DNA from: a virus
Strand: one strand, 5' to 3'
DNA length: 46,669 nucleotides
IMG/VR virus record: IMGVR_UViG_3300029267_002225
Location: 1-46,669 of that record
Position numbers and translations under genes: made by a program. The notes beneath the pieces were generated by a model, which had not been told where the DNA came from, made no database searches, and saw nothing but the letters and a program-made list of their open reading frames with translations. Shown here one piece after another: positions 16,818 to 43,789 of this stretch; position 1 is the first letter of the stretch; the number at the start of each line of letters is the position of its first letter.

Positions 16818-17444
16818 ATGAAGCTGAACGATTACGATTACGACGCACTGTACGAATCCGGCAACTGGATGATCCGTATGGACAACGACGGCGAAAGCTA
16901 CAATGGTTTTTGCTGGAATCCGATTGGCGAGTGGACGGAGCCCAAGGAGTGGTCCGATGAGCCGACCTGCGACAGCGGCGGCTTGTTCGGACAGTCGCTA
17001 AAGGCTGCTGGATTCTGCGGATCAGGCTCACGTTTGGTGCTCTGCGAGACGGAGGGCGATCAGATTGTCGTGCACGGCAACAGAAAAGTCAGAGTCCGCC
17101 GGGCAAAGATCGTGGCGACGGACATGGACGTTGAGGCGAGATTTCTTGAGGGCATGGCCTTAGGGCTCGCCAGCTACGATCACCCGTTGCCGAAGGGGCT
17201 GATGAAGACGGGCTACCTGGATCTCACCGGCTACGCTCACCCGTTGCCGGATGGATTGGTGCAGACGGGCAACCTTTGTCTTGATAACTACGATCACCCG
17301 TTGCCGGCGAGCTTGCAGCAGACGGGCGAACTTTGTCTTGATGGCTACAATCACCCGTTGCCGGCGGGGTTGGTGCAGACGGGCAACCTGTGGCTCACCG
17401 GCTACGATCACCCGTTGCCAAATGGGTTGAAAAGAAAGGTATAA
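16818..17444 (+). CDS. Leucine-rich-repeat-like phage protein
   Basis: Encodes 208 residues with AGGAGG 11 bases upstream. Residues 1-110 form a Cys/Trp-containing N-terminal domain of unknown family. Residues about 118-205 are 19-residue repeats of the form Y(D/A/N)HPLPxGLxxTGxLxLxG, four full and one partial, matching the LPxGLxxxGxLxL style of LRR proteins in phages. It is the first gene after the 16740 promoter and is followed after two bases by a MORN-like gene. The repeats are nearly identical at DNA level (57-bp period). Binding function is likely; the target is unknown. Confidence 0.75.
   Translation: MKLNDYDYDALYESGNWMIRMDNDGESYNGFCWNPIGEWTEPKEWSDEPTCDSGGLFGQSLKAAGFCGSGSRLVLCETEGDQIVVHGNRKVRVRRAKIVATDMDVEARFLEGMALGLASYDHPLPKGLMKTGYLDLTGYAHPLPDGLVQTGNLCLDNYDHPLPASLQQTGELCLDGYNHPLPAGLVQTGNLWLTGYDHPLPNGLKRKV
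17162..17430 (+). repeat. 57-bp tandem repeats of the LRR-like gene
   Basis: Four full and one partial 57-bp unit, each containing CACCCGTTGCC. Copies differ at a few bases only, mostly in the residues just after the Pro-Leu-Pro motif. Confidence 0.75.
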
Positions 17445-17446
17445 TA

Positions 17447-18061
17447 ATGAAGATCACTGTAGACATGCTGCGCGAGAGGAACGCCTGCGAAGATCAGGTC
17501 GCATTATTTGAGCAGACGTTCCCAAACGGAATGCGTTGGCCGGATGATCTGGATACGGCCCATCGGGCCGGGCTGAACACGGCGTGGGGTGCGGTGGAGT
17601 TTGGGCTGTCGGGCGTTTGCGAGGAGTGGTACCCGGCCGGGCAGTTGCGCTACCGCGCGCACTACGAGCACGGCAAGCTGCACGGTGTTTGCGAGGCGTG
17701 GTACGCCAACGGGGAATTGAGCTCTCGCGAGCGCTACGAGTACGGCGAGCTGCACGGCGTTTGCGAGGGGTGGTACTCAGACGGGAAACTGCGCTCACGC
17801 GACCACTACGAGCACGGCAGGCTGCACGGCGTTTGCGAGGTGTGGTACGACAACGGGCAACTGTGCTCTCGCTATCACTACGAACACGGTCGGCTGCACG
17901 GCGTTTGCGAGATGTGGCATCCCAACGGGCAGTTGTGGTATCGCGCGCCCTACGAGCGCGGCGAGCGGCACGGCGTCCGCGAGGAGTGGCACGAAAACGG
18001 GCAATTGTGGTCTCGCAAGCGCTACGAGCACGGCGAGTTCGTGAGCGAGGAGGGGGTATAA
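17447..18061 (+). CDS. MORN-like (YwqK-type) repeat protein A, 6 repeats
   Basis: Encodes 204 residues. A conserved N-terminal domain of about 55 residues (MKITVDMLRxxNACEDQVxLF, then WPxDLxxA, then AWGAxxFGLS) is followed by six 24-residue repeats of the form GVCExWYxNGQLxxRxxYEHGxLH and a short C-tail VSEE. The repeat matches the MORN_2/YwqK family (COG2849), known in YwqJK toxin-antitoxin pairs and many phage proteins. There is no signal peptide, so it is probably cytoplasmic. Its TAA overlaps the ATG of paralogue B (TAATG). No partner toxin is seen nearby. Function unknown; a binding or decoy role is possible. Confidence 0.8.
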   Translation: MKITVDMLRERNACEDQVALFEQTFPNGMRWPDDLDTAHRAGLNTAWGAVEFGLSGVCEEWYPAGQLRYRAHYEHGKLHGVCEAWYANGELSSRERYEYGELHGVCEGWYSDGKLRSRDHYEHGRLHGVCEVWYDNGQLCSRYHYEHGRLHGVCEMWHPNGQLWYRAPYERGERHGVREEWHENGQLWSRKRYEHGEFVSEEGV

Positions 18062-18640
18062 TGCACATAACGGTAGACATGCTGAGGGCGAAAAACGCCT
18101 GTGAAGATCAGGTCGCATTATTCGAACAGACATTCCCGGCCGGCATGGACTGGCCGGAGGACCTGGAGAAGGCTGGCTGGGCCGGGCTGGACACGGCGTG
18201 GGGTGCGATGGAATTCGGGCTGTCGGGTGTTTGTGAGGCGTGGCACTACAACGGGCAACTGCGGCTTCGCACGCCCTACGAGCACGGCAAGCTGCACGGT
18301 GTCCGCGAGGAATGGCACGACAACGGGCAGATGTCCTCTCGCCTGCCCTACGAACACGGTGAGCGGCACGGTGTCCGCGAGATATGGTACAACAACGGAC
18401 AATTGTGGTTTCGCGAGCACTACGAGCACGGCGTGCTGCACGGCGTCCGTGAGAAGTGGCTCGCCAACGGGCAGATAAGCTCTCGCGAGCCCTACGAGCA
18501 CTACGAGCGCCACGGCGTTTGCGAGGTATGGTACAGCAACGGGCAATTGTGGTTTCGCAAGCACTACGAGCACGGCGAGCGGCACGGCGTCCGCGAGGAA
18601 TGGGACGAAAACGGGCAGTTGCGCTACCGCGAGCACTACG
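17615..18640 (+). repeat. 72-bp MORN-coding repeat arrays (paralogues A and B)
   Basis: Twelve 72-bp units in two genes. Units contain the recurring DNA words TACGAGCACGGC and CACGGCGT. The unit lacks stop codons in several frames, which produces long false ORFs on both strands. Confidence 0.85.
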
Positions 18641-18675
18641 AGCACGGCAAGCTTGTGAGCGAGGAGAAGGTGTAA
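18061..18675 (+). CDS. MORN-like repeat protein B, 6 repeats
   Basis: Encodes 204 residues, the same length and plan as paralogue A: N-terminal MHITVDMLRAKNACEDQVAL domain, six 24-residue repeats, C-tail VSEEKV. The first two repeats are almost identical in DNA to those of paralogue C (4 differences in 123 nt, 18261-18383 against 21148-21270), whereas the N-terminal part is closer to paralogues A and D. One repeat ends EHYERH instead of EHGERH. It is coupled by TAATG to both neighbours. Cytoplasmic, function unknown. Confidence 0.8.
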   Translation: MHITVDMLRAKNACEDQVALFEQTFPAGMDWPEDLEKAGWAGLDTAWGAMEFGLSGVCEAWHYNGQLRLRTPYEHGKLHGVREEWHDNGQMSSRLPYEHGERHGVREIWYNNGQLWFREHYEHGVLHGVREKWLANGQISSREPYEHYERHGVCEVWYSNGQLWFRKHYEHGERHGVREEWDENGQLRYREHYEHGKLVSEEKV

Positions 18676-18881
18676 TGACAGATCAACCGACCTTGACTTG
18701 CGACAACTGCGGGGAACCAATCAGCGATGAGCGCGTGTTGAGCGCGGCGGGCACGATCAACGGGCGACGGTCATATACACCGCTGGACCCGGACCGAGCG
18801 CGGGAGCTGCAACGGCTGGCCGTGGTGCAACGCAAGCTGAATCTGCAACGTAAGGAGGCGAAAAATGACACTGCCACCTGA
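18675..18881 (+). CDS. Small zinc-finger-like protein
   Basis: Encodes 68 residues; the start overlaps the stop of MORN B (TAATG). A single CDNCGEPI motif near residue 9 is half of a zinc-ribbon and could bind metal as a dimer. The rest is basic and helical. It overlaps the next gene by 17 bases, which itself has a strong SD. Function unknown. Confidence 0.6.
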   Translation: MTDQPTLTCDNCGEPISDERVLSAAGTINGRRSYTPLDPDRARELQRLAVVQRKLNLQRKEAKNDTAT

Positions 18882-19068
18882 CCCGATCCCGCGAAACACA
18901 CCGGTTGTCAGCCCGAAAGGCACGCGAGCGCGAATCGTGCCGCAACGCAAAACGGACCCGCCGAAATACCGATTGCGGTTTGCGTATGTGACCGGCAACG
19001 GCACGTATAACCGGCAGGAATTGATCGACTGCGGATTGGTGCTTGACACGGACGCGGCAGACGCGTAG
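18865..19068 (+). CDS. Small basic protein, unknown
   Basis: Encodes 67 residues behind a strong AAGGAGG at about 18851. Pro- and Arg-rich N-terminus, then a short beta-type segment (KYRLRFAYVTGNG). It sits just upstream of the recombination genes. Unrecognised; it may be an accessory DNA-binding peptide. Confidence 0.6.
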   Translation: MTLPPDPIPRNTPVVSPKGTRARIVPQRKTDPPKYRLRFAYVTGNGTYNRQELIDCGLVLDTDAADA

Positions 19069-19097
19069 GCTGAAAAACATAGGAGGTTCCACTCATC

Positions 19098-19235
19098 ATG
19101 CAGACTTTTGTTCCGGCGCGAGCTCTACCGGAGATTACTCAACACTTATGCCTTGTCCGGCACGCAATCGGGCGGGCAATCAACGCACGTCGGGCGCGGC
19201 GGCTCCCGGCGTTAAACAAGCTGCAACGGCTGTAG
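19098..19235 (+). CDS. Very small basic protein (45 aa)
   Basis: An ORF of 45 codons with AGGAGG at 19081-19086, eleven bases before the ATG, filling a gap that would otherwise be empty. The product is strongly basic in its second half (IGRAINARRARRLPALNKLQ), helical, with one Cys. The good SD and the fit between neighbours argue that it is real; function unknown. Confidence 0.55.
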   Translation: MQTFVPARALPEITQHLCLVRHAIGRAINARRARRLPALNKLQRL

Positions 19236-19259
19236 TTGCAGCAGCAAAGGAGGTTCCCA

Positions 19260-20051
19260 ATGGAACAGCAACAGCAAGAGCTAACACCGGTCGCGGCACC
19301 GCAACAGCAGGATATTGCGGTGGCATCGGATACCGGCAGCGCGGATATGACATCCGGGTTGATCCGGGCCGCAATTGACAAGGACTTGGACGCGGACAAG
19401 CTCGAAAAACTGCTTCGGCTTTACACCGAGGAGGCGGAGCGGCGGGCAAAAATCGCATACGCGCAGGCGATGAACGCGGCACAATCGGAAATGGAGCCGG
19501 TGCGACGTGATGCAAGGAACGAGTCCACCCGGTCGCGGTTTGTTCGGCTGGAAACAATGCACCGCAAGGCGTATCCGATTTTCACGGCGCACGGGTTTTC
19601 CCTGTCGCACGATGAGGCGGACTCGCCGGTGGAGGGCATGACGCGGTATCTGTGTATTTGCCGACATGTACAGGGACACAGCGAGACGTATCACGTTGAC
19701 CTCCCACTTGACGACCAGGGCATACACGGCAAACGCAACAAAACAGCCGTACATGCCAAGGTGTCTAGTGGGAGCTATGCGCGGCGGGTTCTGGAGGCGC
19801 GGATATTCAACATTGCTTTTTGCGATGACGACGATGACGGCAATGCGGCAGGCGGCCGCAAGCCGGAGCCAACAATCACGCCTAAACAGGTAAGCGCACT
19901 GGTCGAACTGTTGGATGAGGCGGACAAGCCGCACTCACAGGCGTTGGAGTACGCTGGCGTCGAGGAGATGGAGGACATTCCCGTCGGTGCATACAATAAG
20001 TTGGCGTCGCGGCTGCGGGGTCTAATCAAGCAACAGGGAGGTCGGCCGTGA
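19260..20051 (+). CDS. erf: Erf-family single-strand annealing protein
   Basis: Encodes 263 residues; AAAGGAGG is six bases before the ATG at 19260 (an earlier in-frame ATG at 19236 has no SD). The core at about residues 50-185 (AYAQAMNAAQSEMEPV, then TRSRFVRLETMHRKAYPIF, then the tail of an SGSYARRVLEARIF helix) matches the ERF superfamily of phage recombinases. These proteins anneal complementary single strands during recombination and genome circularisation. An acidic DDDDD run follows. It is immediately followed by the exonuclease gene (GTGA overlap), the classical pairing of annealase and exonuclease. In this phage it might also recombine the repeat genes on both sides. Confidence 0.85.
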   Translation: MEQQQQELTPVAAPQQQDIAVASDTGSADMTSGLIRAAIDKDLDADKLEKLLRLYTEEAERRAKIAYAQAMNAAQSEMEPVRRDARNESTRSRFVRLETMHRKAYPIFTAHGFSLSHDEADSPVEGMTRYLCICRHVQGHSETYHVDLPLDDQGIHGKRNKTAVHAKVSSGSYARRVLEARIFNIAFCDDDDDGNAAGGRKPEPTITPKQVSALVELLDEADKPHSQALEYAGVEEMEDIPVGAYNKLASRLRGLIKQQGGRP

Positions 20052-20743
20052 TTATCCATGATTGTTCACAGGGCGCCGGTGAATGGCTGCAATTGCGACT
20101 TGGTATTCCGACGGCTAGCCGGTTTGGCGATCTTATGACGCCGACAGGAAAGCGGCGCACGGGCGCTACACCGCAGAAGTACCTGGCGGAGCTGGCATAT
20201 GCGCGGATCACAGGTGAGCATCCGTCTCATTTTGAATCGAAGGCTATGGAGCAGGGCACGGAGTTGGAGCCCGAGGCGCGGGCGTGGTACAGCGTCGGGC
20301 ACGAGATTCGCCGTGTCGGCTTTGTGGCAGAGGACAACGGGCGTTGGGGTGCTTCACCGGACGGGTTGGTCGGAGAGGATGGCGGGCTGGAGATCAAGTG
20401 CCCGTGGGAGGCAAACTTCTGCCGGTATCTGATGTTCAATGATCCCGTTTACGAGCCCTATTACATGCAGATGCAAGGCTGCATGTGGGTCTGTGAGCGC
20501 AAATGGTGGGACTTCGTGCTGTTTACCAAGGCCCGCAATCTGGCACCGTACACATGCAGGGTTGAGCGCGATGACGGATTGTGCGCCGCGTTTGACGAGC
20601 ACATGCCGGAGATCTGCGCGGATCTGGACGAGGCCGTGACTACGATGATGAACACCTTGGGCATGGATGGCGAGCAGGCCGCTGCACAAAGGGCCGCACT
20701 AGAGGAAGCCGAGCACGCGACATACGGCATGCCGGACTGGTAG
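20048..20743 (+). CDS. YqaJ/lambda-type viral exonuclease
   Basis: Encodes 231 residues from a GTG that overlaps the erf stop (GTGA), with GGGAGG upstream. Motifs fit the YqaJ viral recombinase family (PD-(D/E)XK fold): GAGEWLQLRLGIPTASRF at residues 9-26, then WGASPDGLVGE with Asp105, then LEIKCPW with Glu115 and Lys117 as the catalytic ExK, and YYMQMQGCMWV as the helix after the core. It would resect 5' ends to feed the Erf annealase. Full family length and intact catalytic residues. Confidence 0.88.
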   Translation: MIIHDCSQGAGEWLQLRLGIPTASRFGDLMTPTGKRRTGATPQKYLAELAYARITGEHPSHFESKAMEQGTELEPEARAWYSVGHEIRRVGFVAEDNGRWGASPDGLVGEDGGLEIKCPWEANFCRYLMFNDPVYEPYYMQMQGCMWVCERKWWDFVLFTKARNLAPYTCRVERDDGLCAAFDEHMPEICADLDEAVTTMMNTLGMDGEQAAAQRAALEEAEHATYGMPDW

Positions 20744-20753
20744 GAGGTGGCAC

Positions 20754-20951
20754 ATGACAAGAATCCTGGACTGCAGGCAAACCGATACCCCGACGCCGAG
20801 GTGGACCAGTTGCGCGTTTTGCGCTCACCAGGTTGACACGCGATATCCGGCTGTGTGCGAGGGGTGCGGCACAATGGATGGGTGTAGCCGGTGTGTGGGG
20901 AACGGACTGTGTCCCGATTGCCAGCGCGAGAAAGACGGGGGTGAGGAATGA
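20754..20951 (+). CDS. Small zinc-ribbon protein
   Basis: Encodes 65 residues with TAGGAGG upstream. Four Cys pairs in a row (CAFC, CEGC, CSRC, CPDC) can bind two zinc ions, as in small phage zinc-ribbon proteins of unknown role. Ends in an ATGA overlap with MORN paralogue C, so the two are co-translated. Confidence 0.7.
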   Translation: MTRILDCRQTDTPTPRWTSCAFCAHQVDTRYPAVCEGCGTMDGCSRCVGNGLCPDCQREKDGGEE

Positions 20952-21634
20952 AAATCACTGTAGATATGCTGAGGGCGAAGGACGCGTGCGAAGATCAAGT
21001 TGAGCTATTCGAAGAGACGTTCCCAAACGGTATGCGCTGGCCGGAGGATCTGAATACGGCTGGCCGGGCCGGGCTGGACACGGCGTGGGGTGCGATGGCG
21101 TTTGGGCTGTCGGGCGTTTGTAAGTGGTGGTACGACAACGGGCAATTGCGGCTTCGCACGCCCTACGAACACGGCAAGCTGCACGGTGTCCGCGAGGAAT
21201 GGTACGACAACGGGCAGATGTCCTCTCGCCTGCCCTACGAACACGGCAAGCGGCACGGTGTCCGCGAGATGTGGCATCCCAACGGACAATTGTGGTTTCG
21301 CGAGCACTACGAGCACGGCGAGCGGCACGGCGTCCGCGAGAAGTGGCACGCCAACGGGCAATTGTGGTATCGCGCGCACTTCGAGCACGGCAAGCTACAC
21401 GGCGTCCGCGAGGAGTGGCACGACAACGGGCAACTGTGCTATCGCAGGCCCTACGAGCACGGCGAGCGCCACGGCGTTTGCGAGATGTGGTACGCCAACG
21501 GACAACTGCGCTATCGCAGGCCTTACGAGCACGGCGAGCTGCACGGCGTCCGCGAGGCATGGTACGACAACGGGCGATTGATCTCTCGTACGCGCTACGA
21601 GCACGGCGAGTTTGTGAGCGAGGAGGTGGTATAA
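20948..21634 (+). CDS. MORN-like repeat protein C, 7 repeats
   Basis: Encodes 228 residues: the family N-terminal domain (MKITVDMLRAKDACEDQVEL), seven 24-residue GVRExWYxNGQL-type repeats and the tail VSEEVV. Exactly one repeat (24 residues) longer than A and B. It has the cytoplasmic plan of the family and is coupled to paralogue D by TAATG. Repeat 4 (WYRAHFEHG) is shared with paralogue E on the opposite strand 10 kb away. The first two repeats match paralogue B. Function unknown. Confidence 0.8.
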   Translation: MKITVDMLRAKDACEDQVELFEETFPNGMRWPEDLNTAGRAGLDTAWGAMAFGLSGVCKWWYDNGQLRLRTPYEHGKLHGVREEWYDNGQMSSRLPYEHGKRHGVREMWHPNGQLWFREHYEHGERHGVREKWHANGQLWYRAHFEHGKLHGVREEWHDNGQLCYRRPYEHGERHGVCEMWYANGQLRYRRPYEHGELHGVREAWYDNGRLISRTRYEHGEFVSEEVV

Positions 21635-22080
21635 TGCACATAACGGTAGACATGCTGAGGGAGAAAAGCGCGTGCAAAGACCAGGTTGAGCTATTCGAAC
21701 AGACGTTCCCGGCCGGGATGAACTGGCCGGCGGACCTGGATACGGCCCATCGGGCCGGGCTGAACACGGCGTGGGGTGCGGTGGAATTCGGGCTGTCGGG
21801 TGTTTGTGAGGCGTGGCACTACAACGGACAACTGCGCTATCGCACGCCCTACGAGCACGGCAAGCGGCACGGCGTCTGTGAGGTGTGGTACCCAGACGGG
21901 CGACTGCGCTCCCGCGAGCACTACGAACACGGCAAGCTTCACGGCGTCCGCGAGGTGTGGCGCGACAATGGGCGATTGATCTCTCGTACGCCCTTCGAGC
22001 ACGGCGAGCGGCACGGTGTCTTCGAGGCGTGGCACACCAACGGGCAATTGTGGTTTCGCGATCACTACGAGCACGGCGAG
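21115..22080 (+). repeat. 72-bp MORN-coding repeat arrays (paralogues C and D)
   Basis: Eleven 72-bp units in two adjacent genes, interrupted by the 165-bp N-terminal domain of D. Same DNA words as the A/B array. Confidence 0.85.
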
Positions 22081-22104
22081 CTCGTGAGCGAGGAGAAGGT
22101 GTAA
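21634..22104 (+). CDS. MORN-like repeat protein D, 4 repeats
   Basis: Encodes 156 residues: N-terminal MHITVDMLREKSACKDQVEL domain, four 24-residue repeats, tail VSEEKV. It is shorter than C by exactly three repeats. One repeat begins GVFE instead of GVCE or GVRE. The start overlaps the stop of C and its own stop overlaps the next gene (TAATG). Function unknown. Confidence 0.8.
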   Translation: MHITVDMLREKSACKDQVELFEQTFPAGMNWPADLDTAHRAGLNTAWGAVEFGLSGVCEAWHYNGQLRYRTPYEHGKRHGVCEVWYPDGRLRSREHYEHGKLHGVREVWRDNGRLISRTPFEHGERHGVFEAWHTNGQLWFRDHYEHGELVSEEKV

Positions 22105-23131: not shown

Positions 23132-23230
23132 ATGAATGCAACACAACACAGCCCCGAAACGGACAGGCATCCCCCTCGCGGTTTGACCCTGATCGTCTCC
23201 GGAGTAGGGGCTCCTTTTTGCCATGACTGA
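23132..23230 (+). CDS. Leader-type small ORF (32 aa) overlapping the replication gene
   Basis: AGGAAGGA seven bases before the ATG at 23132 is the best SD in this leader. The 32-residue product (MNATQHSPETDRHPPRG...) runs over the start of the next gene at 23223, ending TGA at 23230. The next gene has no good SD of its own, and its start lies just after a GGAG...CTCC hairpin followed by five T. Translation of this ORF may open that hairpin and couple expression. Read as a leader peptide; it could be chance. Confidence 0.45.
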   Translation: MNATQHSPETDRHPPRGLTLIVSGVGAPFCHD

Positions 23231-24275
23231 CCAACCGCAACAACGTCCATCCGGCGCGAAAAACCGACCGTCAGAGCCCGTGTACCCAGCCGATATTTTG
23301 TCCGATGATGACCTCCGCGCATGCAGCCTGATTGCACGCGGCGCATGGTACGAATGCCTCTTCCATATGTGGCGCAAACGCACCTGCGAAATCAGCCGTA
23401 CAAGGGAGGGTTTTGCCCGGATGTGGGGGTGTGATGTAGAGGCTGTCGATAACATTTTAAGCGAATTCCAATGTAACAATCCGTGCACTGTCACGCTTTG
23501 TCACAAAAAAGTCACGCTAATGTCACGCCGTTTGCACAGGCGAGAAAAAGCCCGTAAACAGGGGCGAAAGCGCAAGGAAAAATCTCGAAAGAAACAATGT
23601 CACACCGGTGTCACAGCGGAAAATGTGCTCCCTTCTTCTTCCTCTTCCTCTTCCTCTTTAGAGTTACCCCCCCCTACCCCCCAAAGGGGGGATGTGAGTG
23701 AGAGTGTTGAAATGCCTGTTCCGGACCCAGAGTCAGGGCCCCAACCTAAGCCGGCACCTGAACCCAAACCGAAGCCAGCCGACCCTGCACCGATCCTGGA
23801 ATCGGACGGCCGCTATCCGCTCACACCGGAGCAGTACGAAAAGCATCCCGGCCTGAAAATTCTGCATGACCACATTCCGTTGCGTGGTCTGACCCTGGCG
23901 GCGTGGCTGAAGCTGAAGGAGAATTTCTCGAACCGGAGCGACTGGACCCGGTTTGCCGAGCACGCGGTCGGGGAGGCGGAGCTGGAGGGTACGATCTACG
24001 CGCCGCGAAAATGGCTCAACAAAATCATGCAGCAATGGGATACCCGCAACACGCAGAACAAGACGGAGAGCACGCGACAGTCGCGGGCGGATTGGATGAA
24101 GCGAGAAATCATGCGCATGGCGGACAACTTGAGCGAGAACTACCGATTGGTAGGCGGCGAGGGCAACTGGGACCGGCTGCTGAATTGTTGGCGAAATGGC
24201 GGCCGTGAACGAATGGCGGATGAGGCGGTGAAGCTGGCGAGAGAACGGCGCAATAAGGAGGCAGAGCATGATTGA
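23223..24275 (+). CDS. YdaU/DUF1376-like replication protein
   Basis: Encodes 350 residues. The N-terminus (PADILSDDDLRACSLIARGAWYECLFHMW, about residues 22-50) has the signature of DUF1376/YdaU-type replication initiators, in which a winged-helix-like domain follows PxDWxxD...L. A basic KR-rich stretch (about 108-125) is followed by a run of eight Ser and a Pro-rich linker, then a helical C-terminal domain (about 215-345), possibly a helicase-loader-like partner domain. No helicase gene is present, so it probably recruits the host replicative helicase. Its start lacks a good SD, suggesting coupling to the 23132 ORF. It overlaps the next gene by 8 bases. Confidence 0.65.
   Translation: MTDQPQQRPSGAKNRPSEPVYPADILSDDDLRACSLIARGAWYECLFHMWRKRTCEISRTREGFARMWGCDVEAVDNILSEFQCNNPCTVTLCHKKVTLMSRRLHRREKARKQGRKRKEKSRKKQCHTGVTAENVLPSSSSSSSSLELPPPTPQRGDVSESVEMPVPDPESGPQPKPAPEPKPKPADPAPILESDGRYPLTPEQYEKHPGLKILHDHIPLRGLTLAAWLKLKENFSNRSDWTRFAEHAVGEAELEGTIYAPRKWLNKIMQQWDTRNTQNKTESTRQSRADWMKREIMRMADNLSENYRLVGGEGNWDRLLNCWRNGGRERMADEAVKLARERRNKEAEHD
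23629..23691 (+). repeat. TCT/TCC microsatellite and C6-AAA-G6 hairpin
   Basis: A pyrimidine tract coding for eight serines (from about 23629) leads into an eight-C run (23667-23674) and a perfect CCCCCC-AAA-GGGGGG hairpin at 23677-23691, all within the linker of the replication gene. Homopolymer runs of this length are prone to slippage, and a frameshift here would remove the C-terminal domain. Confidence 0.75.
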
Positions 24276-30090: not shown

Positions 30091-30265
30091 GTTCGCTCTC
30101 ATCGAGCATGATGTAGCCTTCTCGGGCAAGCTGGTATATTATCAAGCGCCGAACAAAGGCCCCGGTAGTCACCCCTGTATGGCGTTCACGCGCGGCCAGT
30201 GGCTCTTCCATGTGCTCGCTGACGTGCGTAACTACCCGTTTCGTTTTTCGAGGTTTCTTTGACAT
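30086..30265 (-). CDS. Ribbon-helix-helix (CopG/Arc-type) regulator
   Basis: Encodes 59 residues from the ATG at 30265, preceded by GGAGGGA; an upstream ATG at 30307 has none. After a basic N-terminus (SKKPRKTKRVV) come a beta strand, a helix (EHMEEPLAARER) and the turn plus second helix (GVTTGAFVRRLIIYQLARE), the RHH layout. Such proteins bind DNA as dimers of dimers. It is divergent from the 30300 gene, with only 34 bp between the starts, and lies upstream of ssb, so it probably represses one or both. Confidence 0.7.
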   Translation of the reverse strand: MSKKPRKTKRVVTHVSEHMEEPLAARERHTGVTTGAFVRRLIIYQLAREGYIMLDESEL

Positions 30266-30288
30266 TGCAGCTCCCTCCATATTACTGT
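30259..30288 (+). promoter_or_regulatory. Possible promoter for the 30300 gene
   Basis: Perfect TTGACA at 30259-30264, 18-bp spacer, TACTGT at 30283-30288 (weak -10). Transcription would start a few bases before the ATG at 30300, giving a nearly leaderless mRNA, which fits the absence of an SD. The -35 overlaps the SD/start of the divergent RHH gene. Confidence 0.35.
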
Positions 30289-30299
30289 ATTCTTGTTTT

Positions 30300-30890
30300 A
30301 TGTCCACTTCTGAAACATCTGATTTTCCTTCCAGTCAGCCAAGCCAAGACGCGGCCGATCAAAACCCACGCAACGAATCCCGGCGGACACAGCGGGTGGT
30401 ATCGGCACCGGAACGCCGGGAGGCAACGCCACATGAGGACGGCATCCGTCGCGTTGTGCATATGCTGCCCGACGAAGCGACAGACGAACAGCGGCAGATA
30501 CTCCTGGACCTGGTGTTCTACTCAGTCCACGGCGTCGCGGAGAAGCACGGCATCGACCGAACCACCGTGTACCGCACCCTGGAACGCTATGAGCGCGAAT
30601 ATAAGGCGCTCGTGGCCGCGAAAACGGACGTGTTATGCTCTCTCTGTGAATCATCGGTATATTCCGGGCTACATCTTATCAACCGCAAGCTCGCTCTGTT
30701 GACCGAGGATGACCTGTCACCGAACAACCTGAAAAACATCGCTTCTACCACAAGCGCCGCCGCGAAGCTTCTGGAGTCCCTTAAAGCCGGTGCGGATCAA
30801 TCAGACCCCGAGGACAAGTGGCGTCAGCTCAACCGCGACGCCACAAAAGCCCTCGCCACGGTCAACAAGTCCCGATCAACCAAGCAGTAA
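30300..30890 (+). CDS. Helix-turn-helix protein, possible small terminase subunit
   Basis: Encodes 196 residues from ATG 30300. A disordered Ser/Gln/Arg-rich N-terminus (1-60) precedes a helix-turn-helix at about residues 72-100 (DLVFYSVHGVAEKHGIDRTT, then VYRTLERYE), then a long helical region (DVLCSLCESSVYSGLHLINR... KNIASTTSAAAKLLESLKAG) that could oligomerise. HTH followed by helical oligomerisation is typical of small terminase subunits, and none is seen near the large subunit. A transcription regulator is the alternative. Confidence 0.55.
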   Translation: MSTSETSDFPSSQPSQDAADQNPRNESRRTQRVVSAPERREATPHEDGIRRVVHMLPDEATDEQRQILLDLVFYSVHGVAEKHGIDRTTVYRTLERYEREYKALVAAKTDVLCSLCESSVYSGLHLINRKLALLTEDDLSPNNLKNIASTTSAAAKLLESLKAGADQSDPEDKWRQLNRDATKALATVNKSRSTKQ

Positions 30891-31346: not shown

Positions 31347-31744
31347 TATACCGCCTCCCTTTTTACGAGCTTGCCGTGCTCGTAGTGCGAGCGAAACCAC
31401 AATTCCCCGTTGGCGTACCACGCCTCGCAAACACCGTGCAGCTCGCCGTGCTCGAAGTGCGCGCGATACCACAATTGCCCGTTGGCGTGCCAGTCCTCGC
31501 AGACGCCGTGCAGCTTGCCGTGCTCGCAGCGCCTGCGATAGCGCAGTTGCCCGTTGGGGTGCCACCCCTCACGAACCCCCGACAATCCAAACTTCACCGC
31601 GCCCCACGCCGTGTCCAGCCCGGCCCGGCCTGCCGTCTCCAGGTCTGCCGGCCAGTCCATACCGTTTGGGAACACCTGCTCAAACAGCTCAACTTGATCT
31701 TCACAGGCGTTTTTCGCCCTCAGCATGTCTACAGTTATTTTCAT
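31346..31744 (-). CDS. MORN-like repeat protein E, 3 repeats
   Basis: Encodes 132 residues: the family N-terminal domain (MKITVDMLRAKNACEDQVEL), three 24-residue repeats and a variant tail (VKREAV). AAAAGGAGG lies upstream. It is the shortest family member with an N-terminal domain. Repeat 2 (WYRAHFEHG) matches a repeat of paralogue C. It lies on the opposite strand, about 10 kb from A-D, in the RadC operon. Function unknown. Confidence 0.78.
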   Translation of the reverse strand: MKITVDMLRAKNACEDQVELFEQVFPNGMDWPADLETAGRAGLDTAWGAVKFGLSGVREGWHPNGQLRYRRRCEHGKLHGVCEDWHANGQLWYRAHFEHGELHGVCEAWYANGELWFRSHYEHGKLVKREAV

Positions 31745-32397: not shown

Positions 32398-32642
32398 TGT
32401 TCCCTCACAAATTCGTCCACGCCAATCAGCACGCCATGCTTGTAGTGCCTGCGATAGCGCAATTTCCCGTTGCTATACCACACCTCACAGACGCCATGTC
32501 GTTCGCCGCGTTCGTAGTGCGTGCGATAGAACAATTGTCCGCTAGCGTTCCAAGTCTCACGGACGCCGTGCAGCTCGCCCCGCTCGTAACGATCGCGAAA
32601 GCGCAATCGTCCGTTGGGGTGCCGGGCTTCACGTATTTTCAT
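32394..32642 (-). CDS. MORN-like repeat protein F, N-terminal domain lost
   Basis: Encodes 82 residues: MKI then three 24-residue-type repeats (REARHPNGRLRFRDRYERGE, and so on) and a different tail (VDEFVREQ). The SD and first codons (GGAGGTTACG, ATGAAAATA) are the same as in paralogue E, but the rest of the N-terminal domain is missing, as if an internal deletion joined codon 3 to a repeat. It overlaps radC by 14 bases and is coupled by ATGA to the next gene. Confidence 0.7.
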   Translation of the reverse strand: MKIREARHPNGRLRFRDRYERGELHGVRETWNASGQLFYRTHYERGERHGVCEVWYSNGKLRYRRHYKHGVLIGVDEFVREQ

Positions 32643-33375
32643 CGTAACCTCCGTCGAAGTCTACTAGTCCATGTTCACGCAGACTCACAAACGCCGGTGC
32701 GCCGTTGATCGGTGACCCCAGCACAACGTGGTCCAACACCTTGATGTGGACAGCCTGCCCGGCCGAAACAAGCTGTCTTGTGATGCGTATGTCTTCCACT
32801 GATGGGGTCGGGTCGCCGCTGGGGTGATTGTGAGCAACAACCAACGCGACTGAGTTGCGCATTATTGCAGTTCGGAACACCTCTCGCGGGTGCACCAGGC
32901 TTGCGTCCAACAGGCCGCATGTAATCTCTACCGGCTCGCACGCCATGCGGTTTTTTCCATCAAGCGGAATCACGTAAAACTTCTCTTGCGTCGCACCATT
33001 GATCCGTGGCGTGAGCAAACGAGCTATGTCTTCCGGTGTGCGCACAGACTCTTCGTGTGTCACCCCAGTCATAGCCACTCTACGCCCTAGCTCAATGCCC
33101 GCTAGGAGCACCGCGGCCTGTTTTCCCGTCATGCCGGGACACGTTGCCAATGCGTCAACGGTCATATGCCGCACCTTAGCCAGTGGCACGCTGGCCAGAA
33201 GACCCCTCGCCAAATCCATTGCGTTGTGTTTCCTGTTTCCAGTGAGCATACATGCCACCAGTGCGGCCTCATCCAGGTTGTCGACCCCCTGTCTCCGTAG
33301 GGCATCAGCAGGCCGTAAGGCCGTGGGCATTTCTGCCACGGTTGTTGTCGATTCTCGCACAGTCCAGTTTATCAT
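32629..33375 (-). CDS. radC: RadC-family JAB/MPN protein
   Basis: Encodes 248 residues from the ATG at 33375 (GGGAGG upstream; a longer start at 33423 is less likely). The N-terminal part (LRRQGVDNLDEAALVACMLT, CPGMTGKQAAVLLAGIELGR) is the helix-hairpin-helix-like region of RadC (UPF0758) proteins. The C-terminal part has the JAMM zinc site: AHNHPSGDPTPSVED at about 181-195, with His182, His184 and Asp195 or Asp188 as ligands. Intact and of usual length. RadC proteins are frequent beside phage and plasmid recombination genes; activity is still unsettled. First gene of the leftward operon. Confidence 0.88.
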   Translation of the reverse strand: MINWTVRESTTTVAEMPTALRPADALRRQGVDNLDEAALVACMLTGNRKHNAMDLARGLLASVPLAKVRHMTVDALATCPGMTGKQAAVLLAGIELGRRVAMTGVTHEESVRTPEDIARLLTPRINGATQEKFYVIPLDGKNRMACEPVEITCGLLDASLVHPREVFRTAIMRNSVALVVAHNHPSGDPTPSVEDIRITRQLVSAGQAVHIKVLDHVVLGSPINGAPAFVSLREHGLVDFDGGYDENT

Positions 33376-33426
33376 CTTGGATCCTCCCTTTCGTTTCTCG
33401 CCATTACACCCGCAACCGCCCATCGC

Positions 33427-33443
33427 AGTGCGATAATGGCACT
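33427..33443. promoter_or_regulatory. 17-bp inverted repeat (AGTGC-N7-GCACT)
   Basis: Perfect 5-bp arms around GATAATG, 52 bp upstream of the radC start. Same 5-7-5 geometry as the two TGTCG sites further right, but different arms. Candidate operator for the leftward operon. Confidence 0.45.
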
Positions 33444-33507
33444 ATCACATGCAGACCGCATGCCAATCACCACGAATGTCGCGTTTTACTACACTATTGG
33501 CTGCCAC

Positions 33508-33524
33508 TGTCGCATAATCCGACA
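33508..33524. promoter_or_regulatory. 17-bp inverted repeat TGTCGCATAATCCGACA
   Basis: TGTCG and CGACA arms around a 7-bp core. A second copy with the same arms and ends of the core lies at 33808-33824. Degenerate versions start at 33477, 33556 and 33928. Confidence 0.55.
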
Positions 33525-33750
33525 CTTTCCGCATCCGACGGCCATGGATGCACGCTGTCGCATTTCGCACATTCGCCACACCGCGCATCAGCGTTGCAAT
33601 CGTGATAACAGCCGACCAGGTGCCGGGCGTGCGCCGATGCCGGCGGGTGTATGGATACGCGCGCGCGTGTAGGGTGCCTGGCATGTGTCGGGTAAGAGAG
33701 GGGGGCGGCGAGGGGGAGTTGGGTTGGCCCGCGAGTCCCCGCTCGCCATA

Positions 33751-33794
33751 AATGAGACACTAATGAGACACTCGTGAGACACCAATGAGACACT
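33751..33794. repeat. Four tandem 11-bp iteron-like repeats
   Basis: AATGAGACACT, AATGAGACACT, CGTGAGACACC and AATGAGACACT follow each other without gaps, one per helical turn. Matching units recur at 34736. Such arrays bind initiators or repressors cooperatively on one DNA face. Confidence 0.75.
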
Positions 33795-33807
33795 TTGCCC
33801 TCTATTG

Positions 33808-33824
33808 TGTCGCGTTTTCCGACA
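33808..33824. promoter_or_regulatory. 17-bp inverted repeat TGTCGCGTTTTCCGACA
   Basis: Second copy of the TGTCGC...CCGACA site, 13 bp right of the 11-bp repeat array. Only the central bases differ from the 33508 copy. Confidence 0.55.
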
Positions 33825-34735
33825 TGTCGTGCAATCTGCAACGCATTCGCAATCTGCACGGCAACTTATTCAGCCGTCGACGCCGGGGTCGCAACTCCTT
33901 GCAATCGGCGCACTTAGCTTCGGCCAGCGTCGCATAATACCGCTTATGTTGAGTTCCCCCACATTGCCCATGACGCGCTAACCGTTGCAAACGCAATGGG
34001 TTTCCGTGTGCGACTAGCGTTGCGGTTGTGGCTCAGGCTGGATGGATGTGGGTTGCCGCCGGCCGTCATGCGGTGCCATATGGGTGCCTATTTGCAGGGG
34101 TTTGGGCCGTTCGCCTATCCGGCTGACCGGGCAGGGGGGTAGTCGTTCGCCTATCCGGGGGCCTACCCTTCCCCTCCCCCCGGCCTATCCATACCCATAC
34201 CCAACCCCGACAACCCCGAATAGTTGCAAAAACAGGCCCTGCAAGAGAGACACAAAGCTGCGAAAGAGAGGGTTCTTGGGTGGATTGCATGCAGGGTTCA
34301 AATATGCACAAGTGTGCACAACTGCGAGAGAGTAAACTTCCCCCCTTTGGAGGGGAAGCTGGGATGGTGAGACTCATGCTGTGCGCGAGATGAGTAAAGG
34401 CAACGTGTTGAGAGACGCGGCGCATGGGTTGAGCCAGGACCTGGCGCGTGTGTCGCAGACAGACGGTTCCCCGATTCTGCCGTACTGGTCCACCAGCTTG
34501 GCCTTAGTGAGGCCGAACGGTATTGGTTTCATCGCAGTGTTTTTGCAATGGTTCCCGTTGCGCGGGGTTGGCACATGGCTTTATCCCCACACAAGGTGGT
34601 CTAACCACGGAGGGCGATCACACACAGCCCGCCTTGTATGTGGTGGTATTATGGCCGGGGTGGAAGAGCAAGTCAAGGAGTAGTGGGAATAAAGAGGTTG
34701 GACAAGAAGTGCGGCTGGTGTTAGTGTGAGGGCTT

Positions 34736-34768
34736 TATGAGACACTGATGAGACACCGAGAAGACATA
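34736..34768. repeat. Second 11-bp repeat array
   Basis: TATGAGACACT and GATGAGACACC, then a degenerate GAGAAGACATA. Same unit as at 33751, in the same orientation, about 0.95 kb away, and just upstream of the first ORF of the late strand. Confidence 0.65.
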
Positions 34769-34791: not shown

Positions 34792-35058
34792 ATGGGCAGC
34801 AATGATTTTGAGTTTAGTGAGCGGCTACGGGTGGCGACGCGGCTGAAAGAGGCGATGGGCGGGCTGTTGGTAGAGCTGGAATCAGCCAAGGCCGTGGTGG
34901 GGAAGCATGCTGAGCTAGACAGTGTGATTTCGATAGTAGCCGGGGTAAGTTTCCGTGCGGTTGATGTGGTACTGGGTTCAGCCGGCGGAATGGGGGATAG
35001 AGAGGTCTGTGGAGATGATTGGGCGCTGTCGGATTCTTGCGAGGCCGTCGGCGAGTAG
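34792..35058 (+). CDS. Small unknown protein upstream of the terminase
   Basis: Encodes 88 residues; GGAGATGAG lies just upstream. The first 60 residues form a plausible amphipathic helix protein (FEFSERLRVATRLKEAMGGL); the remainder is less protein-like, and the 3' end overlaps the leftward ORF at 34978. It might be an early regulator or a small terminase, being next upstream of the large subunit on the same strand. Coding status uncertain. Confidence 0.45.
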   Translation: MGSNDFEFSERLRVATRLKEAMGGLLVELESAKAVVGKHAELDSVISIVAGVSFRAVDVVLGSAGGMGDREVCGDDWALSDSCEAVGE

Positions 35059-35413: not shown

Positions 35414-37180
35414 ATGATTTACCGGCTACCATACGGAGGAAAGTGGCACGTATTCAGCGATCGGGACCTGCTGGATATGTCCAAGCGCGGGGATGGGGAC
35501 ACGGCTGATTTTCTGCTTACGCTGTATCGGGAATATGAGCGCAATCATCTGGCTTTTTTTCTGCCGCATGGCGGGGTGCTGGACCTGCTCAACGACTGGA
35601 AGAGTGATTTTCATATTGTGCTGGCCGGCAAGCAGCGAGGGAAGACCATAGGGCTGCTGGCTTGGCTGGCGTTGCGGACATGCAAGTGTGACAAACACTG
35701 GCCGTTGTTTCAGGATCATGGCGTGATATGTCCAGAATGGACCGGACCGAAACATTGTGCGCTGGCTACCTATCGGATGGGCACGCACGCGAAGACCAAT
35801 TTGTGGCCCAAGATTGTGCGGGAGATGTTTCCGGTAGATGAGCTGCGGAAATACAGCAGCATATGGGCGAAAGAGAACGGCGCTCATGTACGGCGCGTCA
35901 ACTGGAAGAGCGGATCTCCGATGGTGGAGCTGGGAAATGGAAGCACAGTCACCATGTACAGCTACGAGCAGGGTTTGGAAGCATTTACCAGCAGCAGCTA
36001 TGATGCAGTTGCGTTCGACGAACAGCCGCCGGAAGACATATTTGACGAAGCGTTTGAGCGCGGAAAGATGCGTGAACACTACCAGACTGCGGCCGCGATG
36101 ACGCCGCACAAGATACCCGGCAATCCCTGGACTGGCGGAGGTGGATGGGTGCATCAGTTGTATCTTGGGAGCAAAGACAAAGGTATTGATGTACGCTTCA
36201 GCCGCATAGATATCGAGGATGTGCCTGATGCAATAATGAGCGCAGAGCAGAAGGCCGATGAGTATGAGCGGAATATTGCTGCACCGGAGCGGCAGGGCAA
36301 TGCTCGCGACAAGCGGCGTGGGCGTTCGAACTATTATGGGGAGTTTGAGGTCAGTGAAGGGCTTGTGTATGACAACTGGGACCCGACAGTACACGTCATT
36401 GATCCGATTGAGATACAGCCGCACTGGACTTTATGCCGTTCTGTAGACCATGGCCGTGTTCATCCCTGGGCGGGGCTATGTGGCGCGGTAACAGAGCGTG
36501 GTGATCTTGTGTTGTATCGAGAGTTCTTCCGTGTAGGTGCGTCTGTATATGAGAATGTGCGGGATTTCGTGGCTGCGTGCGGCAATGAGTTGAAAGAAAT
36601 TGGTCAGTTCGAGGGTGAGGACGGCTCCTTATACAAAGAGTACAGAGAGGTTTACAAGTCCGAAGAATACGACTTTACCGTACTGGATGGGCGGAGTTTC
36701 AAGCGGCCGACAGACGAAAGTGTTGAGACATTGGGCGAGTTGTATATTCGCCATGGTCTTGACTGCACACCGGCCAGCGGAATGCACGACACGAATGCGG
36801 TGCCGATTGTGCGGGAATGGTTCGATTGCAGTGAAGACCGGCCGCATATACTGGAATGGCTCCAGCTCAAGGACCGGGTAGTAGGCTCTGACGGCGAGCC
36901 ATTGGCAGGATCTCCGCGAATATACGTATTTCGCACATTATCCAACTTTCGGCGTGAGATAGCCGGATACATGAACCGGGAGAACGATGAGCGTCCGGTA
37001 GACCACGACAACGATCTTATGACGGCATTGAAATACATGATTCTGGCAGAGCCCCGCTATCTGGGATCAGTGCGCCATGAGACTGAGGATTCGGATGATC
37101 TGCAGGTGGAAAAAGGCTTTGAAGGGCAGCGTATTCGCTCGTTGGGCAAGAGTCAGGGGCGGTTTGTGTATCATGTGTAA
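35414..37180 (+). CDS. terL: Terminase large subunit
   Basis: Encodes 588 residues, AAGGCG upstream. ATPase: Walker A AGKQRGKT (residues 71-78), Walker B YDAVAFDE (196-203) with the catalytic Glu203. Nuclease (RNase H-like): Asp345 in SVDHGR, Asp425 in VLDGRS and Asp532/Asp534 in VDHDNDLMTALKYM. This enzyme packages DNA into the procapsid and cuts the concatemer. All key residues are intact and the length is in the normal range. It heads the packaging and head gene block; the next gene follows after 16 bases. Confidence 0.93.
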   Translation: MIYRLPYGGKWHVFSDRDLLDMSKRGDGDTADFLLTLYREYERNHLAFFLPHGGVLDLLNDWKSDFHIVLAGKQRGKTIGLLAWLALRTCKCDKHWPLFQDHGVICPEWTGPKHCALATYRMGTHAKTNLWPKIVREMFPVDELRKYSSIWAKENGAHVRRVNWKSGSPMVELGNGSTVTMYSYEQGLEAFTSSSYDAVAFDEQPPEDIFDEAFERGKMREHYQTAAAMTPHKIPGNPWTGGGGWVHQLYLGSKDKGIDVRFSRIDIEDVPDAIMSAEQKADEYERNIAAPERQGNARDKRRGRSNYYGEFEVSEGLVYDNWDPTVHVIDPIEIQPHWTLCRSVDHGRVHPWAGLCGAVTERGDLVLYREFFRVGASVYENVRDFVAACGNELKEIGQFEGEDGSLYKEYREVYKSEEYDFTVLDGRSFKRPTDESVETLGELYIRHGLDCTPASGMHDTNAVPIVREWFDCSEDRPHILEWLQLKDRVVGSDGEPLAGSPRIYVFRTLSNFRREIAGYMNRENDERPVDHDNDLMTALKYMILAEPRYLGSVRHETEDSDDLQVEKGFEGQRIRSLGKSQGRFVYHV

Positions 37181-43057: not shown

Positions 43058-43789
43058 ATGAAGCACTTAGCTTTATTCATTATGTTGATTACAGCTTGTG
43101 CGTGTGCGACTTCAGTATTTGCGGCAGAGACCAATGCCAGCACTGACATAGCACATTGGGGCACGGCTGTAATACAGCAAGACGGCACCTTTCTGACCGA
43201 TGGTGACGTTACGGCAAGTGGTGCGCTGAGCGGCGCGTCATTGAGTGCGAGTTCTATCAGCAATGATACCGGGTTGATCTACGGCTCCAACCTCACGGTT
43301 GTGACCGGAGGCGCGGTTGACTTCCCGGATGACTCGCTGGAAGTGGCTGACGTGGCGGCTGGGTCATTGCCTGCTGATGTTATTGCGCAGAATCTGAGCA
43401 ATGACACGGCGCAGGTCTACGGCTCGAACCTCACGGTTGTTGCTGGAGGCGCGGTTGACTTCCCGGATGACTCGTTGGAAGTGGCTGACGTGGCGGCTGG
43501 GTCATTGCCTGCTGATGTTATTGCGCAGAATCTGAGCAATGACACGGCGCAGGTCTATGGCTCCAACCTCACGGTTGTTGCCGGAGGCGCGGTCGACTTC
43601 CCGGATGACTCGCTGGACAAGGCTGACGTGGATGCGGATCTGTACGAGAAGGATGGCGTGAATATGTTGACTGAAGGGTATTTCGACGTAGTCGATTACT
43701 CGAACCTCGTGTTTATCGCAACGGAAACAAACGGCGTGGCGCTGGCTCCGTATGTTACAAACAGCATTGACGCAGACATAAGTAACTAA
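43058..43789 (+). CDS. Exported protein with tandem 46-residue repeats in the head operon
   Basis: Encodes 243 residues with AAAGGAG upstream. Residues 1-22 (MKHLALFIMLITACACATSV, then FA) are a Sec signal peptide. From about residue 80 come repeats of 46 residues (GGAVDFPDDSLEVADVAAGS ... QVYGSNLTVVA): three starts, two full units plus a partial. The DNA repeats are nearly identical, 138 bp apart. A secreted repeat protein next to the major capsid gene is unusual; capsid fibre, decoration or cell-surface functions are possible. Confidence 0.7.
   Translation: MKHLALFIMLITACACATSVFAAETNASTDIAHWGTAVIQQDGTFLTDGDVTASGALSGASLSASSISNDTGLIYGSNLTVVTGGAVDFPDDSLEVADVAAGSLPADVIAQNLSNDTAQVYGSNLTVVAGGAVDFPDDSLEVADVAAGSLPADVIAQNLSNDTAQVYGSNLTVVAGGAVDFPDDSLDKADVDADLYEKDGVNMLTEGYFDVVDYSNLVFIATETNGVALAPYVTNSIDADISN
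43291..43615 (+). repeat. 138-bp tandem repeats
   Basis: The block CCTCACGGTTGT begins at 43291, 43429 and 43567, exactly 138 bp (46 codons) apart, with only a few base differences between copies. Repeat-number change would keep the frame. Confidence 0.85.

Follow-up and report, generated by a model that had tools for sequence, protein, structure and literature searches.

Two clusters of an iteron-like word beside the packaging operon of an uncultured phage mark a candidate control site

The analysed DNA, referred to here as the window, is the whole of an IMG/VR virus contig of 46,669 bp that represents an uncultured phage. The 8-letter word TGAGACAC occurs in it at positions 33753, 33764, 33775, 33786, 34738 and 34749, always on one strand and nowhere else. 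Four units form array 1 (33753..33793, + strand) at an exact 11-bp period, and two units followed by a degenerate third at 34760 (GAAGACAT) form array 2 (34738..34767, + strand) with the same period. The preliminary description had reported two 11-bp iteron-like arrays, with four tandem copies in the first and two to three more, similarly oriented, in the second; this is borne out, the four copies being exact and the second set consisting of two exact copies and the degenerate one. Six occurrences compare with 1.59 expected in the window, and none of 100 shuffles reached six. The spaced pair TGAGACACN3TGAGACAC, with its 11-bp step, has four exact matches in the window and six when up to three mismatches are allowed, against 0.42 expected, and no further run of three or more units (up to one mismatch each) is present elsewhere in the window. 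The spacers between units vary (TAA, TCG and CAA in array 1; TGA in array 2); thus, conservation is greater in the core than between cores, and simple duplication does not describe the arrays.

Array 1 lies to the right, in window coordinates, of a RadC-like JAB-domain gene (32629..33423, − strand; PF04002, 3e-35), the first gene of a leftward block. The stretch from this gene to the first small rightward gene (33424..34389) is non-coding and contains neither a DnaA box nor an A+T-rich segment unusual for the window. A small ORF follows at 34381..34683 (+ strand), with a likely ATG start at 34390 and a codon-usage score of −0.06, compared with 0.03 to 0.11 for recognised genes and −0.28 to −0.34 for true non-coding frames. 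About a third (34390–34683) of the gap of about 0.95 kb previously described as having little coding potential therefore has coding-like codon usage, and the non-coding part is approximately 33424–34389. Array 2 occupies a 108-bp intergenic gap approximately 25 bp upstream of the start codon at 34792, which belongs to a small coding-like gene without a family match (34792..35058, + strand). The large terminase gene (35414..37180, + strand) starts the packaging/late operon, and a connector-like gene and a head-protein gene lie beyond it in the rightward direction. No small terminase was recognised in the window. Repeats of other kinds are also present: numerous tandem coding repeats of 57 and 72 bp at 17166–22081 with a YwqK/MORN-like peptide pattern by eye, an opposite-strand copy related to them at 31368–31570 (31.4 kb), and, in the late region, a 138-bp tandem repeat at 43278–43631 (2.6 copies, 93 % identity).

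Several general signs of an origin were sought around the arrays. GC-skew changes sign near 33.9–34.0 kb, as an origin had been predicted to show, but this is the same place at which gene direction switches from leftward to rightward; since that switch explains the skew, the change does not independently point to an origin. Near the arrays, the lowest-GC 40-mers do not stand out in the window, ranking 0.45 and 0.81. DnaA boxes are absent near the arrays, the only box-like matches in the window being at 10648, 13084, 25716 and 36629. A scan of the window for HTH_36 gave no match and no O-like initiator was found, although a divergent one is possible.

The gene at 23223..24275 (+ strand), 10 kb from the TGAGACAC arrays, had been put forward as the putative replication gene whose product recognises them. 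It has no Pfam or PHROG match, its protein shows no detectable similarity to a set of O-like initiators, and a single-sequence structure model (pLDDT 48) is too poor for interpretation. Its middle part carries a rival iteron-like array (23489..23619, − strand) of TGTCAC-type units at 23489, 23499, 23510, 23521, 23598 and 23609, spaced mostly at 10–11 bp and placed ahead of a pyrimidine tract. With its six units leading into a pyrimidine tract rich in CTTCCT and into poly-C, the whole segment 23489–23690 is reminiscent of an in-gene phage origin. Recognition of the arrays by the 23223 protein is accordingly not supported, given that the protein is unlike O-like initiators and that its own gene carries a different 11-bp-phased repeat. 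On the opposite strand the TGTCAC array reads TGTGACAC, one base off TGAGACAC, and this variant is found five times near TGAGACAC arrays elsewhere, against 0.4 expected. The true origin might thus be the TGTCAC array, in the arrangement of lambda O, with the TGAGACAC arrays as an accessory site; phage P4, with ori plus crr, is a point of comparison for such a pairing. This is considered rather unlikely, as gene 23223 has no recognised replication domain and chance could produce near-repeats of 11 bp in a coding gene. The probabilities assigned to the different readings overlap where the readings nest: an accessory site that serves an in-gene origin counts under both.

Relatives of the phage were searched for via the terminase, which gave none among viral contigs and distant matches only among isolates, and via the 23223 gene, which gave none. 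In the absence of close relatives, comparison was made through the DNA word itself. A literature search combining TGAGACAC with phage and terminase returned few matches, of which the one examined was a primer, and TGAGACAC with iteron returned nothing relevant. Among bacterial genomes, the only word arrays were one locus in Microcoleus and a handful of tandem duplications. The Microcoleus genomes (L026–L028, L030, L032 and L034–L036) have in common an 11-bp tandem repeat, TGAGACACAAT, upstream of a regulator-like gene.

Within IMG/VR, three exact 11-bp TGAGACAC units are present in six unrelated viral contigs and two such units in 53 stretches, of which perhaps 20 are attributable to chance by base counting. 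With free spacing, three units occur in 115 stretches, compared with 63 for the reversed control word CACAGAGT, about half of the latter being perfect duplications. Tandem arrays are therefore common, and raw three-unit counts prove little. The control result is also what speaks for the arrays of the window being a product of chance or a functionless tandem duplication. This explanation is nevertheless highly improbable in view of the varied spacers, the uniqueness of the word in the window, its two separated clusters and its degenerate and inverted companions in other genomes.

These companions are more informative than the raw counts of tandem units. Clusters of TGAGACAC are found in dozens of otherwise unrelated IMG/VR phages, at loci of about 30–69 % GC and mostly confined to one cluster in each genome. 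At 23 of 71 TGAGACAC loci, inverted copies lie no more than 300 bp away, whereas the control word has them at 3 of 50. Measured for TGAGACAC only, several one-mismatch variants are enriched more than 10-fold around the arrays, as is expected for real degenerate sites; extra TGAGACA copies near the arrays at 26 loci number 88 against 1.7 expected, although some of these were the basis on which loci were chosen; and in 12 virus records 57 of 64 word sites fall in one cluster by our own count. A word so nearly restricted to one cluster points to a single site and not to a regulon. Array spacings elsewhere centre on 8, 9, 11, 12, 21 and 23–24 bp. The earlier argument that helical-turn spacing indicates binding on one face consequently applies to this phage, where 11-bp phasing is evident, and is not general.

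Of 94 dereplicated loci, at least 18 have the array within the coding sequence of a lambda-O-like winged-helix initiator (HTH_36 or O-like). These arrays sit in the linker that follows the DNA-binding domain, where the repeat is translated as PCLKNG/RVS. The lambda origin likewise lies within gene O (PMC5043065). In prophage-type records (L109, L123, L145, L091, L136 and others) the unit takes the form TGAGACACGG, repeated every 23 bp inside the HTH_36 initiator gene, where it encodes PCLKNG/RVS in the linker of the protein. An array of mixed spacings lies within an O-like gene (phrog_391) at L078. The reversed control word CACAGAGT also forms arrays in or near O-like initiator genes, at L185, L193, L200 and L240. 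An array within an initiator gene is thus a general property of iterons and does not prove that TGAGACAC always has this role; the control arrays show that such genes can carry different iteron words, among which TGAGACAC is frequent but not exclusive. A P4-type primase is not the common initiator, as DUF5906 is present in 7 of 40 records and in several of these is far from the array. The suggestion that the arrays of the window are a site of cooperative binding, possibly an origin, is strengthened by the clustering of the word, with degenerate and inverted copies, in unrelated phages and by the 18 dereplicated loci within initiator genes; its 11-bp spacing has not proved general.

The window belongs to a second class, that of intergenic arrays beside a terminase, in which function is suggested by position and resemblance. 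Pfam models place a large terminase no more than 2.5 kb from the array in 7 of 12 distinct groups, where approximately 2.8 would be expected by our own estimate from record lengths, and the terminases concerned are of different types. A seed-based count placed a terminase at 28 of 40 loci (control, 5 of 10), but its seeds were taken from those very loci and so overstate the link. This proximity is consistent with a packaging-initiation site, pac or cosB-like, at which the small terminase subunit would bind iterons beside its own operon. In keeping with it, the array and the terminase genes are separated by an endonuclease VII/HNH-type gene at two loci, and in T7-like loci the array is positioned at the terminase/early-gene junction. 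A packaging site is judged unlikely, however: small terminase families differ among the loci, cultured phages with related terminases have no arrays, contig ends show no significant clustering at arrays by hand calculation, and the 18 loci inside initiator genes do not fit. Only terminase and portal genes recur beside the arrays, and family scans of the neighbours found no common DNA-binding protein.

Compared with other intergenic gaps, arrays of the second class are only modestly A+T-rich (mean rank 0.38); some loci look like origins, with inverted clusters around A+T-rich DNA and, in L017, DnaA boxes. At L017:2150–2800, mirror-image TGAGACA arrays with a DnaA box (TTATCCACA) on each side surround an A+T-rich core, the array being located between a GpA-type terminase gene and a DUF5906 primase gene. 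Inverted clusters flank an A+T-rich core at L041 as well.

Another locus of the second class looks like a late promoter. In a phage-plasmid of Apilactobacillus kunkeei (L089:3094–3550), four 11-bp TGAGACA units come directly after an activator gene (phrog_248), just upstream of a perfect TATAAT, and precede the small-terminase gene. The window has a possible −10 box, TATTTA, 16 bp beyond the first base of the degenerate unit in array 2, at the same offset as the Apilactobacillus TATAAT. Together with the placement of the arrays between divergent operons, an arrangement also seen at L008, L010, L041 and L079, and with the closeness of array 2 to a gene start, this raises the possibility of an early/late switch in which a phage regulator, activator or repressor, controls the leftward RadC and rightward packaging operons, possibly by looping between the arrays. 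Such a switch is somewhat unlikely. A −10 box at fixed offset is missing from the other loci, the TATTTA matching L089 only; a promoter scan gave nothing at the arrays; and other operons carry no repeats of the word. In addition, promoter operators seldom include inverted or variably spaced units or lie inside coding sequence. No activator was found by PHROG or Pfam among the scanned neighbours of the arrays in the window, where 30210–30890 has a weak HTH_23 match only.

The reading preferred here is that the TGAGACAC arrays are initiator-type iterons whose likeliest use is replication initiation, as origin or accessory site. It is the best single reading because the word occurs inside initiator genes. 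A nucleoprotein complex needs clusters of just this type, occurring once per genome with degenerate and inverted copies. In the mechanism envisaged, a DNA-binding protein would bind the 8-bp sites side by side, one helical turn apart, and so assemble a nucleoprotein complex at a single phage control site; situated where the leftward genes give way to the rightward packaging operon, this site would most likely govern replication initiation. We infer that TGAGACAC serves here as in the arrays of other phages. For the window itself, the preferred reading is kept just short of an even chance, since A+T-rich segment, DnaA boxes and O-like gene are lacking near the arrays and since gene 23223, with its own TGTCAC repeats, may hold the real origin. 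That arrays of the second class adjoin terminases rather than initiators also counts against it, and the position of the arrays fits an early/late operator or a packaging site about as well as an origin.

Elements of this kind are ordinary; what is unexpected is how widespread the unit is. A broader proposal is that TGAGACAC is a widely shared phage iteron, reflecting a common winged-helix specificity in many unrelated uncultured phages and used both in initiator genes and at a terminase-side site that couples replication to the packaging operon; this is doubtful at present. Sequence hardly ever reveals the origins and packaging sites of uncultured phages, and a word recurring across unrelated phages as one cluster per genome, in one class inside initiator genes, provides a simple handle for locating such sites as well as a testable protein–DNA specificity. 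For this phage, the arrays narrow the search for the main control site to about 1 kb.

Several known systems share features with the window. Repeated initiator sites recall the lambda ori in gene O, and at 18 other word loci they lie in the linker of O-like winged-helix genes. In the window, the arrays lie outside any initiator gene, being intergenic, near the terminase and distant from the putative replication gene; an 8-bp core at 11 bp contrasts with the 19-bp iterons of lambda, and an adjacent A+T-rich segment is lacking. Plasmid iteron origins of the RK2, P1 and R6K type have helix-phased direct repeats, as do the four and two units of the window, yet their period is about 22 bp rather than 11 bp, and a Rep_3/RepA gene was not found for this phage, nor a DnaA box or A+T-rich block at its arrays. 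Cos and pac sites with repeats bound by the small terminase are similar in the adjacent terminase (large subunit, 35414); they differ in that small terminase families vary between array loci. The RinA/ArpU late-promoter regions of Gram-positive phages share an array upstream of the packaging operon, and in the Apilactobacillus locus also an adjacent activator gene; the window has no identified activator among its scanned neighbours, and −10 spacing is not fixed across loci. The parC centromere of plasmid R1 consists of two clusters of 11-bp direct repeats. Although the clusters of the window are almost 1 kb apart and no ParM/ParR pair was seen beside them, the window resembles parC in having two clusters with this same 11-bp period.
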